6,565 nucleotides of DNA from Solirubrobacteraceae bacterium (lineage in GTDB: Bacteria > Actinomycetota > Thermoleophilia > Solirubrobacterales > Solirubrobacteraceae). The stretch lies in the NCBI GenBank assembly GCA_016462625.1, contig JAEMSV010000163.1, forward strand, positions 1 to 6,565, in the 5' to 3' direction. A program made the translations under genes and the position numbers. Within the stretch, counting starts at the first letter, position 1. Each line of letters begins with the position of its first letter. Shown here one piece after another: positions 1 through 4,450 of the stretch. The notes below the pieces were generated by a model. The model made no database searches. It worked only from the letters and a program-made list of their open reading frames with translations, and had not been told where the DNA came from.

Positions 1-1080
1 ATGGCCATCGAGTTCAACGACCGCATCAACCGCATCCCGAGCTACCCGATCGCCGGCGGCTACTCGCTGCCCGACGACGTCGCGCTGCTCGCCTCCAACG
101 AGTCGCCCGACCCGCCGCTCCCTGCGGTCATGGACGCCGTCCAGCGCGCGCTCACCGGCCTGAACCGCTATCCCGACCCGAGCTACGCCGACCTGCGCCG
201 CGCGCTGTCCGACCGCTACGACGTGCCGCAGCTGCGCATCGCGCTCGGCAACGGCTCCTGCGACATCCTGCTCGCCGCCGGCGACGCGCTGCTCGAGCCG
301 GGCGCCGAGCTCGTCTACGCCTGGCCGTCGTTCAGCGTCTACCCGCACCTCGAGGCCGCCAGCGGCGCCCGTGGCATCCGCGTCCCCCTCAACGACCGCG
401 ACGAGCACGACCTCGACGCGATGCTCGAGGAGATCACCGCCGCCACGCGCTTGGTCATCGTCTGCAACCCGAACAACCCGACGTCGACGGCGCTCCCCCT
501 CCAGCAGATCGCCGATTTCATCGCGAAGGTGCCCAAGCACGTCTGCGTGATCCTCGACGAGGCGTACATCGAGTTCTCCACCATCGAGGACCCGGACGCG
601 TCCCTCGACCTCCTCAAGGGCCACAGCAACCTCGTCCTGCTGCGCACGTTCAGCAAGATCTACGGCCTCGCGGGGCTGCGGGTCGGCTTCGCGCTGAGCG
701 CCAGCGAGGAGTTCGTCACGGCGGTCAACCAGGTCCGCCAGCCGTTCTACCTGAACATCCCCGCGCAGGCCGCGGCCGTCGAGGCGCTCAAGCACCAGGA
801 CGCCGTCACGGAGCGGGTCGAGCGCGCGATCGTCGCCCGCGTCGAGATTGAGGAGGGCCTGAAGGAGCTCGGGATCGCCGTCGCCGCCTCGCAGGCGAAC
901 TTCTGCTGGCTGCACCTGCCCGAGACCGCCGACGAGTCCGAGGTGATCGCGGGCCTCGCCGAGCGCGGCGTCATCGTCCGCTCCGGCGCGGCGCTCGGCC
1001 GTGACGGCGCGCTGCGCGTCACGTACGGGACGCCCGCGCACAACCGGCGTTTCCTCGACGCCCTGCGCGACGTCCTCTAG
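1..1080 (+). CDS. hisC: HisC-family PLP aminotransferase (histidinol-phosphate or aromatic amino-acid aminotransferase)
   Basis: A class I/II fold-type I aminotransferase of 359 residues, the usual length for HisC. Visible family motifs are ASNES (31-35), RYPDPSY near 56-62, GNGS (83-86, cofactor phosphate loop), CNPNNPT (155-161), DEAY (186-189; the Asp binds the pyridine nitrogen), RTFSKIYGLAGLRVGF (215-230) with the Schiff-base lysine at 219, and LRVTYG with the substrate-carboxylate arginine at 339. HisC enzymes convert imidazole-acetol phosphate to histidinol phosphate with glutamate, and close relatives (Pat/AroAT) transaminate phenylpyruvate and 4-hydroxyphenylpyruvate. Lying just upstream of DAHP synthase and prephenate dehydrogenase genes favours an aromatic aminotransferase role, but the sequence alone does not settle this. 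The ATG is the first base of the window, so its ribosome site is not visible and a start further upstream cannot be excluded. Family call very secure; exact substrate and the gene symbol are tentative. Confidence 0.9.
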   Translation: MAIEFNDRINRIPSYPIAGGYSLPDDVALLASNESPDPPLPAVMDAVQRALTGLNRYPDPSYADLRRALSDRYDVPQLRIALGNGSCDILLAAGDALLEPGAELVYAWPSFSVYPHLEAASGARGIRVPLNDRDEHDLDAMLEEITAATRLVIVCNPNNPTSTALPLQQIADFIAKVPKHVCVILDEAYIEFSTIEDPDASLDLLKGHSNLVLLRTFSKIYGLAGLRVGFALSASEEFVTAVNQVRQPFYLNIPAQAAAVEALKHQDAVTERVERAIVARVEIEEGLKELGIAVAASQANFCWLHLPETADESEVIAGLAERGVIVRSGAALGRDGALRVTYGTPAHNRRFLDALRDVL

Positions 1081-1083
1081 ACT
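1055..1083 (+). promoter_or_regulatory. Candidate promoter for the leader/aroF transcript
   Basis: TCGACG (1055-1060) resembles the -35 TTGACA at four of six positions, and TAGACT (1078-1083) fits the actinobacterial TANNNT -10. They are separated by exactly 17 bases. Initiation 7-8 bases after the -10 would fall at about 1090-1091, only a few bases before the ATG of the leader peptide at 1094. The peptide would then be translated from an almost leaderless mRNA, which would explain why it has no Shine-Dalgarno. The promoter overlaps the last codons and the stop of the aminotransferase gene. The match is by eye, and short boxes of this kind occur by chance. Confidence 0.4.
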
Positions 1084-1093
1084 CGAACGCCGC

Positions 1094-1174
1094 ATGACCC
1101 CGGCCAGCTCCCACCGCGCTTTTCGCAGCAGCATCGCCGCGCAGTGGACCTGGCGCGCCTATCGATTTATCTAG
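1094..1174 (+). CDS. Aromatic-rich regulatory leader peptide (26 aa)
   Basis: A short ORF, ATG at 1094-1096 and TAG at 1172-1174, encoding 26 residues that end WTWRAYRF-Ile. Aromatic codons are Phe 1121-1123, Trp 1145-1147, Trp 1151-1153, Tyr 1160-1162 and Phe 1166-1168, so four of the last nine residues are aromatic. Both Trp and Tyr as well as Phe are present, as expected for sensing all end products of the pathway that DAHP synthase opens. There is no Shine-Dalgarno; the candidate promoter at 1055-1083 would place the transcript start within a few bases of the ATG. An imperfect stem (1111-1119 with 1139-1147, one mismatch) spans its middle and ends on the first Trp codon, and could act as a pause hairpin. 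The stop codon abuts the 5' arm of the 11-bp pairing. The peptide itself probably has no function beyond being translated. Confidence 0.7.
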   Translation: MTPASSHRAFRSSIAAQWTWRAYRFI

Positions 1175-1178
1175 GCGC
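1155..1178 (+). other. Hairpin overlapping the leader aromatic codons (1:2-type)
   Basis: GCGCCTA (1155-1161) and TAGGCGC (1172-1178) are perfect reverse complements, giving 7 bp around a 10-base loop. The 5' arm lies just after the two Trp codons and includes the start of the Tyr codon; the loop holds the second Phe codon; the 3' arm contains the leader stop codon and the first five bases of the 5' arm of the 11-bp antisequestor. A ribosome stalled on Trp or Tyr would cover the 5' arm and release the 3' arm. Without translation the hairpin would hold it. The pairing is seen directly; the role is inferred. Confidence 0.5.
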
Positions 1179-1242
1179 TCGGCCGGCGGTTCCCGCAGTT
1201 CTCTTTCCCATAGCTCCCGATCTTCTTCTCAGGCCGAGCGCC
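1174..1242 (+). other. Long-range 11-bp pairing, proposed antisequestor
   Basis: GGCGCTCGGCC (1174-1184) is the exact reverse complement of GGCCGAGCGCC (1232-1242). The 47-base loop contains all of the 5' strand (1196-1222) of the helix that masks the aroF ribosome site, so forming this stem first during transcription should trap that strand. A small GCGG/CCGC hairpin (1186-1196) also fits inside the loop. The 5' arm begins on the last base of the leader stop codon, so a ribosome terminating there would cover it. No U-tract follows, so it is not an intrinsic terminator. Confidence 0.55.
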
Positions 1243-1292
1243 GTGACACCCCAGCAGGACCGATCGGGGCGACGCATGGTTGAAAGGAACTG
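1196..1292 (+). other. Shine-Dalgarno-sequestering helix before aroF
   Basis: The strand 1196-1222 can pair with 1262-1292 in one continuous nested helix. The blocks are 1196-1201 with 1287-1292, 1203-1207 with 1282-1286, 1208-1211 with 1276-1279, 1213-1214 with 1274-1275, and 1215-1222 with 1262-1269. This makes 25 base pairs, one of them G-U, interrupted by single-base bulges at 1202 and 1212 and by bulges at 1280-1281 and 1270-1273. Only two of the 27 bases of the 5' strand are unpaired. The 3' strand includes AAAGGA (1283-1288), the ribosome site of the DAHP synthase gene. The apical loop (1223-1261) contains the 3' arm of the 11-bp pairing, so both together would be a constrained pseudoknot and are probably alternatives. 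Confidence 0.6.
1283..1288 (+). promoter_or_regulatory. Ribosome binding site of the DAHP synthase gene
   Basis: AAAGGA lies 11 bases before the ATG at 1300. A second purine patch, GAGAGG at 1292-1297, is only two bases from the start and probably too close. This is the only convincing Shine-Dalgarno among the + strand genes whose upstream region is visible. It lies within the 3' strand of the proposed sequestering helix. Confidence 0.6.
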
Positions 1293-1299
1293 AGAGGCA

Positions 1300-2097
1300 A
1301 TGAAGACCGAGAGCATCGACATCGCGGGCCGCCGGATCGGCGGCGAGCACTTCGCGATGATCGCCGGGCCCTGCACGGTCGAGTCGCGCGATCAGCTGCT
1401 CACGACTGCCGACGCGATGCTGGCGGCCGGGGCGACGATGTTCCGCGGCGGCGCGTACAAGCCGAGGACGAGTCCGTACAGCTTCCAGGGTCTCGGTCAA
1501 GAGGGGCTGCGCCTGCTGCAGGAGGCCAAGGACCGAACCGGGCTGCCGATCGTCACCGAGTTGATGGACGTGCGCGATGTCGAGGCCGTCTGCGAGGTCG
1601 CCGACGTCATCCAGGTCGGCGCGCGGAACATGCAGAACTACACGCTGCTCTCGGAGATCGGTCGCAGCGGCACGCCGGCGATCATCAAGCGGGGCCTCTC
1701 GGCGACGCTCGAGGAGCTCGTCATGGCGGCGGAGTACATCCTCAAGGAGGGCAACGAGAAGGTCCTCCTGTGCGAGCGCGGCATCCGCACGTACGAGCCG
1801 GCATACCGCTTCACGCTCGACCTCATGGCCGTCCCCGTGCTCAAGGAGATGACCCACCTCCCGATCATCGTCGACCCGAGCCACGCGGCCGGGCGGCGCG
1901 ACCTCGTGCCGTCGCTCTCGCTGGCGGCGGCCGCGGTCGGCGCGGACGGCATCATCGTCGAGGTGCACCCCGATCCCGACGAGGCGATCTGCGACGGCCC
2001 GCAGCAGCTGCGCCTCGAGGATTTCCCGGCGTACCTCGAGCAGGTCGAGCGCGCGGCGGCCGTGGCCGGCAAGCAGATCAGCGCAGTGATGGCGTGA
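1300..2097 (+). CDS. aroF: 3-deoxy-7-phosphoheptulonate (DAHP) synthase, type I-beta, catalytic core only
   Basis: Condenses phosphoenolpyruvate and erythrose 4-phosphate to DAHP, the first step of the shikimate pathway, in the cytoplasm. The 265 residues show AGPC (22-25), [16 protein letters not shown] (49-64, PEP-binding), QVGARNMQN (105-113), KRG (130-132), CERG (158-161), DPSH (192-195) and EVHPDP (221-226). The four metal ligands Cys25, His195, Glu221 and Asp232 are all present. They sit at a constant offset of 77 from the Thermotoga maritima enzyme numbering (Cys102, His272, Glu298, Asp309, from memory). Thus the N-terminal ferredoxin-like regulatory domain is absent, and no chorismate mutase domain is fused. 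The enzyme is therefore probably not feedback-inhibited by itself, which suits control through the leader. The KDO8P synthase family is related, but the KPRTSP motif and neighbours favour DAHP synthase. The ATG at 1300 is supported by the upstream AAAGGA; the stop overlaps the tyrA start. Confidence 0.95.
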
Positions 2098-3152
2098 GAC
2101 TCGCGGTCCTCGGCGTCGGGCTGATCGGCGGGTCCCTGGGACTCGCTGCGCGTCAGCGGCTCGGGGCCGAGGTCGTCGGCTGGGACCGTGACCCCGCGGT
2201 CGCCGACCGGGCGATCGCGAAGGGTGCGATCGACGCCGGCGCCGCAACGATCGAAGAAGCGGTGGCGGGCACCGACCTGGTCGTGGTGGCCGCGCCCGTC
2301 GGCGCGCTGCCCGATGCCGTCGGCGCAGCCTTGGCCGCGGCGCCCGCTGACGCGGTCGTCACGGACGTGGGCTCCGTCAAGCATCCGGTCGTGACCGCCC
2401 ACGGCGCCGACGAGCGCTTCATCGGCGGCCACCCGCTCGCGGGCGCCGAGGTCGCGGGGGTCGAACACGCGCGCGCCGACCTCTTCGACGACGCCACCTG
2501 GTACCTCACGCCGACCGGCGCCTCCGGCGGGATGCTGTTCGAGCGGCTGCACCGCTTCCTGACCTCACTCGGCGCGCGGCCTCAGGCCATCGACGCCGAC
2601 GTGCACGACCGCGTCCTCGCGGCGGTCAGCCACCTGCCGCATGTCCTGGCGAACATCATGGTCGCCCAGACCGCTGGGGCGCTCGGGAACGAGGAGACGA
2701 TCCCGTCGACCGGGCCGAGCTTCCGCGATGCCACACGGGTCGCCGGGGCGAACCCGCGGATGTGGGGCGACATCTACCACGCCAACCGCGAGGCCCTCGG
2801 GGCGCAGATCGACGACGCCATCGCCCGGCTGTCGCGTGTGCGTGCGATCCTTGACACCCCCTCCGAGCTGGAGGCCTGGCAGGGCGCGGTGGCCGACGAG
2901 CGGCACCGCCTGCTGGAGGCCGGGCTGGTCGGCGGCGCCACGCGCGAGCTGCGCGTCGCCGTGCCGAACAAGCCCGGCGTGGTCGCCGAACTGGCGCTCA
3001 CCCTCGGTCGGGCCGGCATCAACATCTCCGACATGGCGCTCTCCCCAAGCCCCGACAACCGCAACGGCGTCGTCGCCCTCTGGTGCACCAGCGAGCAGGC
3101 CGGCCGCGCCGCGGAGCTCATCGGGGACCTGGGCTACCCGGTGACGACGTGA
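2094..3152 (+). CDS. tyrA: Prephenate dehydrogenase with C-terminal ACT domain
   Basis: Oxidatively decarboxylates prephenate to 4-hydroxyphenylpyruvate, the committed step to tyrosine. From the GTG at 2094 the protein has 352 residues. [10 protein letters not shown] (7-16) is the Rossmann dinucleotide loop, and Asp31 after the second strand favours NAD+ over NADP+. Further motifs are DVGSVK (91-96), GGHPLAGAE (111-119) with a conserved His113, SHLPH (179-183), and FRDATRVA (210-217) with Arg214, likely to bind the substrate carboxylate. Residues about 286-352 form an ACT domain ([14 protein letters not shown] onward), which in Bacillus-type TyrA mediates feedback by tyrosine. There is no chorismate mutase domain. 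The start overlaps the aroF stop as GTGA and has no clear Shine-Dalgarno, implying translational coupling. The open frame extends upstream inside aroF, but the Rossmann fold begins right at this GTG. Arogenate use cannot be excluded. Confidence 0.93.
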
Positions 3153-4450
3153 CCGACGTGACGTTCGCGCCGGCCACCCGCCTCCGCGGGACGGTCGTCG
3201 CGCCTCCGGACAAGTCGATCAGCCACCGCGCCGCGATCTTCGGCGCCATGGCGTCCGAGCCCGTGGCGATCACCGGCTACCTCATGGCCGAGGACACGAT
3301 CTCGACGCTGAACGCCGTCCGCTCGCTCGGTGCGCTCGTCGAGGAGCGGGGTGCCCAGGTCGTCGTGCGCGGCGTCGGCCTGCGCGACCCCAGCGAGCCC
3401 GACGGCGTCATCGACGTCGGGAACGCGGGCACGCTGATGCGGCTTCTCCCCGGCTGGCTGGCGGCGCAGGACGGCCGCTCCTTCACCTTCGACGGCGACG
3501 CCTCGATCCGCCGCCGGCCGATCGACCGGGTCGCCGTCCCGCTGCGGCAGATGGGTGCCGTGATCGAGGCGACCCATGATCGCTTCGCTCCGTTCACCGT
3601 CCACGGGCAGCGGCTGCACGGGACGAGCTACGACATGCCGGTCGCCAGCGCGCAGGTGAAATCGTGCCTGTTGCTCGCCGGTGTGGCGGCGGAGGGGCAG
3701 ACCACCGTCATCGAGCCGCAGCCCAGCCGCGACCACACCGAGCGGATGCTGCGCCGGATGGGCGTGGAGCTGCACCGGGCCGGGCGCCACGTGACCGTCT
3801 CCGCCGCAGATGAGCTCGAGGCGGAGTCGCTCGTCGTTCCCGGCGACGCGTCGAGCGCGGCGTTCTGGCTGGCCGCCGGCGTGCTGGTGCCGAACGCGCG
3901 CCTTCTCGTCAAGAACGTCAACGTGAACTGGACCCGGATCGGGTTCGTGCGCATCCTGCTGCGGATGGGCGGCGTGGTGCTCGGTGACCTCGAGGACCCG
4001 ACCGGCGAGGAGATCCCCGGCCACGAGCCGATTAGCGATCTCGACGTGGCGGCCAGTCCGCTGGAGGGCACGACGGTCGAGGCCGAGGAGGTCCCGCTCG
4101 CCATCGACGAGCTCCCGCTGGTGGCCCTCCTCGGCTGCTTCGCCGAGGGCGAGACGATCGTGCGCGGCGCCGAGGAGCTGAAGGTCAAGGAGAGCGACCG
4201 CATTGCGACGGTCGTCGACGGGCTCAACGGCCTCGGCGGCGATCTCGAGGCCACCGACGACGGCTTCATCGTGCGGGGCACTGGCGGGCTGCGCGGTGGC
4301 GAGATCGACGCCGCGGGCGACCACCGCATCGCGATGCTCGGCGCGATCGCCGGCCTCGCCTCCCGCGAGGGCGTGAAGGTCCGGGGGATGGAGGCGGCCG
4401 CCGTCTCCTACCCGACGTTCACGGACGACCTGGCTCGGCTGCTGGGCTGA
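3149..4450 (+). CDS. aroA: 3-phosphoshikimate 1-carboxyvinyltransferase (EPSP synthase), class II-like
   Basis: Transfers the enolpyruvyl group of PEP to shikimate 3-phosphate, the sixth shikimate step. The protein has 433 residues from the GTG at 3149, close to the family norm. DKSISHR (21-27) holds the shikimate-3-phosphate/PEP lysine at 22. GNAGTLMRLL (91-100) is the PEP loop, SAQVKS (167-172) and RDHTE (194-198) follow, then NWTR (260-263), DELP (320-323), KESDR (347-351) and DHRIAM (391-396). SAQXK, RXHXE and NXTR together resemble class II enzymes. In the PEP loop the glycine (94) is retained, where CP4-type tolerant enzymes have alanine, and leucine replaces the proline of class I enzymes. 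The start overlaps the tyrA stop as GTGA with no good ribosome site; a second GTG at 3158 is a weaker alternative. The last base overlaps the next ATG. Confidence 0.95.
   Translation: MTDVTFAPATRLRGTVVAPPDKSISHRAAIFGAMASEPVAITGYLMAEDTISTLNAVRSLGALVEERGAQVVVRGVGLRDPSEPDGVIDVGNAGTLMRLLPGWLAAQDGRSFTFDGDASIRRRPIDRVAVPLRQMGAVIEATHDRFAPFTVHGQRLHGTSYDMPVASAQVKSCLLLAGVAAEGQTTVIEPQPSRDHTERMLRRMGVELHRAGRHVTVSAADELEAESLVVPGDASSAAFWLAAGVLVPNARLLVKNVNVNWTRIGFVRILLRMGGVVLGDLEDPTGEEIPGHEPISDLDVAASPLEGTTVEAEEVPLAIDELPLVALLGCFAEGETIVRGAEELKVKESDRIATVVDGLNGLGGDLEATDDGFIVRGTGGLRGGEIDAAGDHRIAMLGAIAGLASREGVKVRGMEAAAVSYPTFTDDLARLLG

Follow-up and report, generated by a model that had tools for sequence, protein, structure and literature searches.

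The DAHP synthase gene (aroF) of the window, the whole 6,565 nt stretch of Solirubrobacteraceae DNA analysed here, has in front of it a genuine leader ORF, conserved among relatives, whose most likely role is to sense aromatic amino acids through the stalling of ribosomes. DAHP synthase opens the shikimate pathway, and accounts of its control usually centre on allostery and repression. The leader would place a conserved sensor for all three end products of the pathway in front of this gene in a little-studied actinobacterial class.

The leader ORF and its orthologues

The original prediction described a 26-codon ATG-to-TAG ORF directly upstream of the DAHP synthase gene, in the only long intergenic gap on the + strand. 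All of this can be read directly from the sequence: the ATG lies at 1094, the TAG at 1172-1174, and the gap measures 219 nt between the end of hisC at 1080 and the start of aroF at 1300 (Table 1). The final nine residues, WTWRAYRFI, contain two W, one Y and one F as claimed. The residues of the ending that had been given, WTWRAYRF, are right, and only the end of the peptide was misplaced, the final I having been left out. The + strand of the window also carries a gene for a membrane protein that matches UptA weakly. A search with Rfam returned zero matches in the window at gathering scores.

Table 1. Positions of the leader, its signals and the neighbouring genes in the window.
Feature	Position	Strand	Evidence and remarks
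hisC-like aminotransferase, upstream neighbour	1..1080	+	TIGR01141; hisC matched in 122/131 kept stretches
Putative -10 box TAGACT	1078..1083	+	overlaps hisC stop codon; 10 nt before leader ATG
Leader ORF	1094..1174	+	26 codons + TAG, MTPASSHRAFRSSIAAQWTWRAYRFI; sequence, orthologues, in-frame aromatic enrichment
Regulatory codon cluster	1145..1168	+	TGG 1145, TGG 1151, TAT 1160, TTT 1166; W+Y+F in last 15 codons of 96/97 leaders
Possible small hairpin P1	1155..1178 (1155-1161 with 1172-1178)	+	encloses stop codon, overlaps P2; fold of window; third base of codon -2 C/T in 58/58 four-fold codons
Invariant tail CGATTT-ATC-TAG-GCG (pattern CGATTTNNCTAGGCG)	1163..1177	+	class-sample pattern search; rare codons kept
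P2 5' arm, GGCGCTCGGCC	1174..1184	+	begins at G of UAG stop; comparative pairing
P2 3' arm, GGCCGAGCGCC	1232..1242	+	comparative pairing; low energy-only probability in window
Shine-Dalgarno-like GAAAGGA of DAHP synthase gene	1282..1288	+	sequence; similar stretches before gene in many relatives
DAHP synthase, type I-beta (aroF), 265 aa	1300..2097	+	TIGR01361, NF006421; without N-terminal ferredoxin-like domain PF18152
Prephenate dehydrogenase (tyrA), downstream of aroF	2097..3152	+	best models prephenate dehydrogenase, all under curated cut-offs
EPSP synthase (aroA)	3152..4450	+	TIGR01356

A genome scan with the DAHP synthase protein alone as query gave at least 80 loci, the nearest of which, among the matches listed, carry titles such as Solirubrobacterales and Thermoleophilaceae, which we take to be the class Thermoleophilia. 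Twenty-two of the 27 nearest loci among these matches offered a gap between hisC and the gene; L010 is cut by a contig end, and L022, L023, L024 and L026 gave no hisC match. Searched independently of any motif, 17 of the 22 gaps contain a short ORF with the same tail (CGATTT-NNC-TAG-GC), which is absent from those of L006, L012, L013, L020 and L027; the genome of L027 carries the element at another DAHP synthase locus, L094. Close relatives thus do possess such an ORF and, as the original prediction had anticipated, clustered W/Y/F codons lie at the same place in diverged genomes between unconserved flanks. One of the records, L014, is titled Chlamydiae bacterium; it groups with Solirubrobacterales rows in the HisC tree and is probably mislabelled or mis-binned.

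A search for the pattern CGATTTNNCTAGGCG gave single sites in 17 of 23 genomes (0 control hits) and 128 sites in the class sample, spread over 126 of its 399 genomes (2 hits for the reversed-pattern control). Once sites identical over 120 nt had been removed, 134 distinct sites remained, the window included. DAHP synthase lies downstream of 131 of them by tblastn (91 type I-beta, 40 type I-alpha). The other three, L098, L133 and L171, matched the pattern without hisC or DAHP synthase, look like chance matches and were dropped. Removal of 34 near-duplicates from the 131 left a non-redundant set of 97 leaders. A covariance model of the element, R1, matches the window at 1151-1246 with 54.3 bits (E = 9.9e-11), the window itself being among the sequences from which it was built. 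R1 matches 142 of the 399 class genomes and leaves 257 without a match. In the phylum sample it matched 12 of 396 genomes, all of which are also matched in the class sample, under Infernal's stricter filters, with which weak or diverged relatives elsewhere could be missed. A spread beyond the class was considered on the basis of CGATTTNNCTAGGC, present in 22 of the 396 phylum-sample genomes (24 sites), and rejected: the reversed-pattern control gave about 22 matches (counted by eye), 10 of the 24 sites are the known element, and the other 14 (12 genomes) have no adjacent hisC or DAHP synthase and look like chance. Judged by these sequence comparisons, the leader ORF is far beyond chance.

Codon composition separates the reading frame from the other two. 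Over the 15 codons before the CGA of the tail, W/Y/F codons make up 372 of 1455 (25.6%) in frame, against 19 and 54 (1.3% and 3.7%) in the other two frames of the same 97 leaders and 84.3 on average in shuffles (sd 8.3, max 117). None of the 97 has an in-frame stop within these 15 codons, and with the fixed tail counted, W, Y and F are all present in the last 15 codons of all leaders but one. Relative to the neighbouring hisC and aroF, and with the codon next to CGA excluded, W is enriched 7.2-fold, Y 4.8-fold and F 1.6-fold; the corresponding ratios are 2.8 for Ser, 1.6 for Arg, 1.5 for Ala, 1.0 for both His and Gly, and 0.4 for Leu. The positions of the W and Y codons vary among leaders while the composition is kept, and the N-terminal half of the peptide differs between distant relatives. 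The frame-specific composition supports the interpretation of the leader as a translated ORF with codons for the end products of the pathway. A chance ORF lying over a DNA or RNA signal, conserved for reasons unrelated to translation, would accommodate a CGATTT that is kept beyond coding need (see below). It is hardly credible, because the aromatic enrichment is confined to one frame and the 15 codons before CGA are free of in-frame stops in all 97 sequences.

The leader's tail and the predicted hairpins around its stop codon

The leaders usually end in TGG-CGA-TTT-AGC-TAG (mostly TGG-CGA-TTT-NNC-TAG); the window has TAT-CGA-TTT-ATC-TAG, with TAT for TGG. Both central codons are rare: in hisC at these loci, CGA accounts for 2.8% of Arg codons and TTT for 5.2% of those for Phe. 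Both are nevertheless carried by 17/17 leaders found without the motif. Eighteen class genomes are matched by R1 without a strict pattern match; in L284 the match is not at the locus, and in the other 17, where it is, CGA is kept in 17/17 and TTT in 15/17 (TTC in L281, ACC in L280), counts that lean toward conservation because R1 scores these letters favourably and the sequences of L269 and L270 seem to be the same at this place. Among the four-fold codons at position -2, all 58 have C or T as the third base (28.2 expected), and the same third-base context is found before TGG in 114 of 200 cases within hisC and aroF. Where codon -2 encodes Tyr it is TAT in 26 leaders and TAC in 8; hisC of the same loci has 137 TAT and 743 TAC. 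The conservation points to a constraint on the tail at the nucleotide level that codon sensing does not account for. No k-mer complementary to CGAUUU was among the most enriched downstream k-mers.

A tail of this kind is reminiscent of TnaC: the C-terminal W-R-F-x and stop could stall the ribosome on a free aromatic amino acid, not on uncharged tRNA, which would explain why the tail is fixed relative to the stop codon and why W precedes CGA in 92/97 leaders. We regard an arrest peptide as unlikely, however, since the last residue varies (S 67, I 16, T 9, R 5), W is replaced in 5/97 by P (2), Y, R or L, and the conservation of CGA and TTT as nucleotides exceeds what a peptide needs. It would also leave the variable W/Y run upstream unexplained.

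The stop codon overlaps the 5' arm of a predicted hairpin, P2 (Table 1). Among 76 aligned rows this arm is 11 nt long, with the consensus GGCGYYCGGCC, and the partner arm follows 22-63 nt on (median 35). These rows (set A1) are the 97 leaders minus 16 with a P2 score below 7 and minus L169, L170, L173, L175 and L185, whose best pairing looked spurious. Of the P2 cells, 93.4% are paired versus 89.9% in shuffles; 6 of the 11 pairs have changes on both sides versus 2.2, and such cells number 52 versus 16.0, all of these values being biased toward pairing because the rows were picked partly on pairing score. Controls in which the partner was slid gave 33.0-47.5% paired. Over all 97 leaders the mean P2 pairing score is 8.3 versus 5.7 shuffled, and the region of P1 and P2 is more stable than its shuffles (mean z -1.43, n = 81). 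A sub-lineage with GGCGCTTCGG arms has a near-chance P2 score and a common CGTGAGCG motif; it may form a more compact version. In L273 and L274 the leader's UAG has become CAG, and the ORF extends into or past the P2 5' arm to the next stop.

By energy alone, P2 has a mean probability of 0.77 in the leaders folded free (>0.5 in 59/76). Masking the leader as far as the stop codon, which also hides two bases of the arm, lowers this to 0.50 (>0.5 in 42/76), so the prediction gives no sign of a stalled ribosome helping P2. For the window the probability of P2 is 0.02 when it is folded free and 0.00 when the part upstream is masked; for its kin L192 it is 1.0. The minimum-energy fold of the window has P1 instead of P2 and pairs the stretch between the P2 arms with the Shine-Dalgarno region, and the window's leader folds with no greater stability than shuffled sequences (z 0.36). 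The case for P2 is one of comparison between sequences more than of energy. P1 is suggestive only: 93.4% of its cells are paired, yet it has no covariation and shuffles equal the observed value. The predicted weight of P2 is higher, not lower, when P1's strand is left free.

Transcription signals, probable sensing mechanism and possible output

Of the 97 leaders, 64 have a -10-like box 4-22 nt ahead of a candidate start, where shuffles average 8.9 and reach at most 15. TACAAA and TGCTAC are each present in 37/97 (0.4 and 1.1 shuffled, respectively). The TAGACT of the window recurs at identical spacing in L190, L191 and L192, and is less independent as evidence because it overlaps a stop codon. 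A scan of 900-1400 for two-hexamer sigma-70 promoters found none. With boxes so placed, transcription would start at the leader ATG or slightly ahead of it. The excerpt of PMC4046766 cites, by the title of a reference, an ilvBNC leader peptide of C. glutamicum that is made without a ribosome binding site.

A second promoter-like box, TANNNT, lies 22-55 nt before the DAHP synthase start codon at 40 of 65 loci, and between -60 and -20 there are 40 such boxes versus 16.3 shuffled; none was found in the window, L190, L191 or L192. The second boxes fit a scheme in which the leader and P2 make up a separate small RNA or small protein with P2 as the 3' end, the gene itself being driven from the box behind P2. 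We consider this quite unlikely: the window and its three kin are without the second box, the N-terminal half of the peptide is unconserved between distant relatives, and at all 131 kept sites it is DAHP synthase that lies downstream.

We think it probable that the element is a cis-acting sensor of aromatic amino acid supply that is read by the ribosome, with attenuation brought about by a shortage of charged Trp, Tyr or Phe tRNAs. The outcome of the comparative test is strongly positive and supports the aromatic sensor of the original prediction, and the stalling itself we infer; that account of the locus lacked the P2 hairpin, the invariant CGATTT, the absence of a terminator and the enzyme's missing regulatory domain. 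In our model, transcription would begin a few bases before the leader ATG, as the boxes suggest, and ribosomes would load on an almost leaderless mRNA. If charged Trp-, Tyr- or Phe-tRNA were short, a ribosome would stall within the aromatic run with its leading edge near the stop codon, the P2 5' arm would be free and P2 could form. If all three were plentiful, the ribosome at UAG would cover the P2 5' arm, because P2 begins in the stop codon itself. A ribosome's footprint reaches about 12-15 nt ahead of the A site, and UAG follows the last codon of the aromatic run at a constant distance; a stall on that codon or earlier would therefore free most of the arm, so that P2 could form under starvation and would be prevented under plenty. 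In L273 and L274, where the ORF ends inside or beyond the arm, the finishing ribosome would still cover it. Geometry and pathway logic suggest that a formed P2 would mean expression on, and a blocked P2 off.

For the output step, termination of transcription that needs no U-tract is probable, with Rho as a possible agent. Downstream of P2 the sequence has only a mild excess of C (C 0.405, G 0.319), so Rho remains a guess. A canonical terminator/antiterminator switch was rejected: no terminator-like site was found in 900-1400, a U-tract after P2 is not enriched (13/81 sequences versus 11.9 shuffled), and no alternative partner for the P2 3' arm was found (best run 5.74 versus 6.08). The 80 nt that follow P2 show no special degree of structure (mean z 0.73). 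Sequestration of the Shine-Dalgarno site by P2 was likewise rejected, predicted openness being 0.509 versus 0.502 with P2 free or blocked (n = 66).

Translational or long-range control like that of the LEU element, in which the Shine-Dalgarno site before the DAHP synthase gene would be bound by leader codons or by the P2 loop, has a counterpart in the window's minimum-energy fold: there P2 is absent, and the bases between its two arms pair with the surroundings of GAAAGGAACUGAG. We judge it improbable, given that the mean predicted openness of the site over the 66 sequences is the same whether P2 is free or blocked and that a complement of CGAUUU is missing from the most enriched downstream k-mers. 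Because energy-based folding of the window does not favour P2, our confidence in attenuation was lowered slightly and that in pairing with the Shine-Dalgarno site raised by a little. Against attenuation it also counts that the second boxes in 40 of 65 relatives would bypass the leader. Codon sensing, moreover, leaves the fixed CGA and TTT unaccounted for, and the Ser enrichment counts against it too.

The enzymes behind the leader and comparison with known leaders

DAHP synthases of both type I-alpha (TIGR00034) and type I-beta (TIGR01361) follow the leader, the former substituting for the latter at 40 loci (e.g. L113-L124 and L161-L165). Parsimony on a FastTree HisC tree of 90 rows requires 11 switches of enzyme type and, within type I-beta, 5 between presence and absence of the N-terminal domain, rough counts given that 30 of the 87 inner branches are weak and that transfer of hisC would also count. 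By tblastn, 8 of the 91 type I-beta loci are without this domain (the window, L109, L110, L138, L154, L155, L182 and L191). PF18152 was found in the relative L005 and not in the window's enzyme; the close kin L190 and L192 keep the domain, and L191 has only its first residues. Repeated loss of the ferredoxin-like domain, itself likely allosteric, behind the same leader is thus likely on the present comparison. A decayed N-terminal domain in the window's gap was considered and rejected, because the aroF ATG is closely preceded by an in-frame stop and the domain had no match by tblastn.

Further arrangements were noted. L260 (G034) has type I-alpha and type I-beta in tandem by tblastn, a possible intermediate of a swap. 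In L281 (G028) tyrA follows the leader, and the fetched stretch gave no DAHP synthase match. Six loci among the matches listed (L027, L029, L031, L033, L043 and L057), titled Solirubrobacterales, Solirubrobacteraceae or Conexibacter, encode a DAHP synthase that is less closely related to the window's (60-64% identity) and has the N-terminal domain; they gave no hisC, tyrA or aroA match in the fetched stretch.

The sensor persists through a swap of enzyme subfamily or the absence of the ferredoxin-like domain, so control seems attached to the position of the gene and not to the enzyme. A bolder proposal, which we put forward tentatively and with some doubt, is that of a portable sensor that reads all three aromatics in one leader, has no intrinsic terminator, uses a new RNA signal (CGAUUU-NNN-UAG and P2) exposed only by an upstream stall, and is kept despite enzyme swap or loss of the allosteric domain. 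The missing terminator and the fixed CGAUUU bear on how attenuation works in GC-rich actinobacteria.

The E. coli TrpL leader ends in WWRTS-stop, on an RNA with a classical terminator. As in the Thermoleophilia leader, its last Trp codon stands three codons before the stop and is followed by Arg; the RNA is different and the likeness probably convergent. In the literature on Thermoleophilia, Solirubrobacter or Conexibacter leader peptides and on DAHP synthase or aroF leaders, the titles and abstract openings of the open-licence papers among the matches listed hold no description of the element.

The excerpt of PMC1262725 covers trp, leu, ilv and cys leaders of Actinobacteria and states that no conserved RNA structures were seen upstream of phenylalanine and tyrosine operons in the genomes used there. 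The Trp-type attenuators of Corynebacterium and Streptomyces described in it resemble the present element in having a Trp-codon leader peptide before a biosynthetic operon and GC-rich hairpins, but have terminators followed by poly-U, for which the Thermoleophilia leader has no such enrichment. According to the same excerpt, the LEU element of actinobacterial leuA shares with it a leader ORF and a conserved RNA structure without a classical terminator. The codon run of LEU pairs with the Shine-Dalgarno site in a pseudoknot, whereas our 66 sequences give no general effect on the openness of that site (PMC1262725).

Two known leaders stand before aroF itself. The uORFC-13-1 motif of Acholeplasma is likewise a candidate uORF with Phe codons before aroF; as described in the excerpt of PMC8632094, it differs in adjoining an apparent intrinsic terminator, in a run of U codons and in its phylum. 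In Corynebacterium glutamicum the aroR leader before aroF, which contains Phe-Tyr-Phe, was reported to respond to Phe and not to Tyr (excerpt of PMC11802643, describing Neshat et al., 2014); the C. glutamicum aroF leader also appears in the excerpt of PMC4046766. The aroR and Thermoleophilia leaders share the phylum, the target step and a short aromatic-codon leader before a DAHP synthase gene. Compared with aroR by its description in these excerpts, the Thermoleophilia leader is dominated by W and Y, with F in the fixed tail, and carries the CGATTT-TAG tail with P2, recurring over diverged genomes. Related leaders are thus already known in Corynebacterium and Acholeplasma, and what is new here is a variant with an unexplained invariant CGAUUU.
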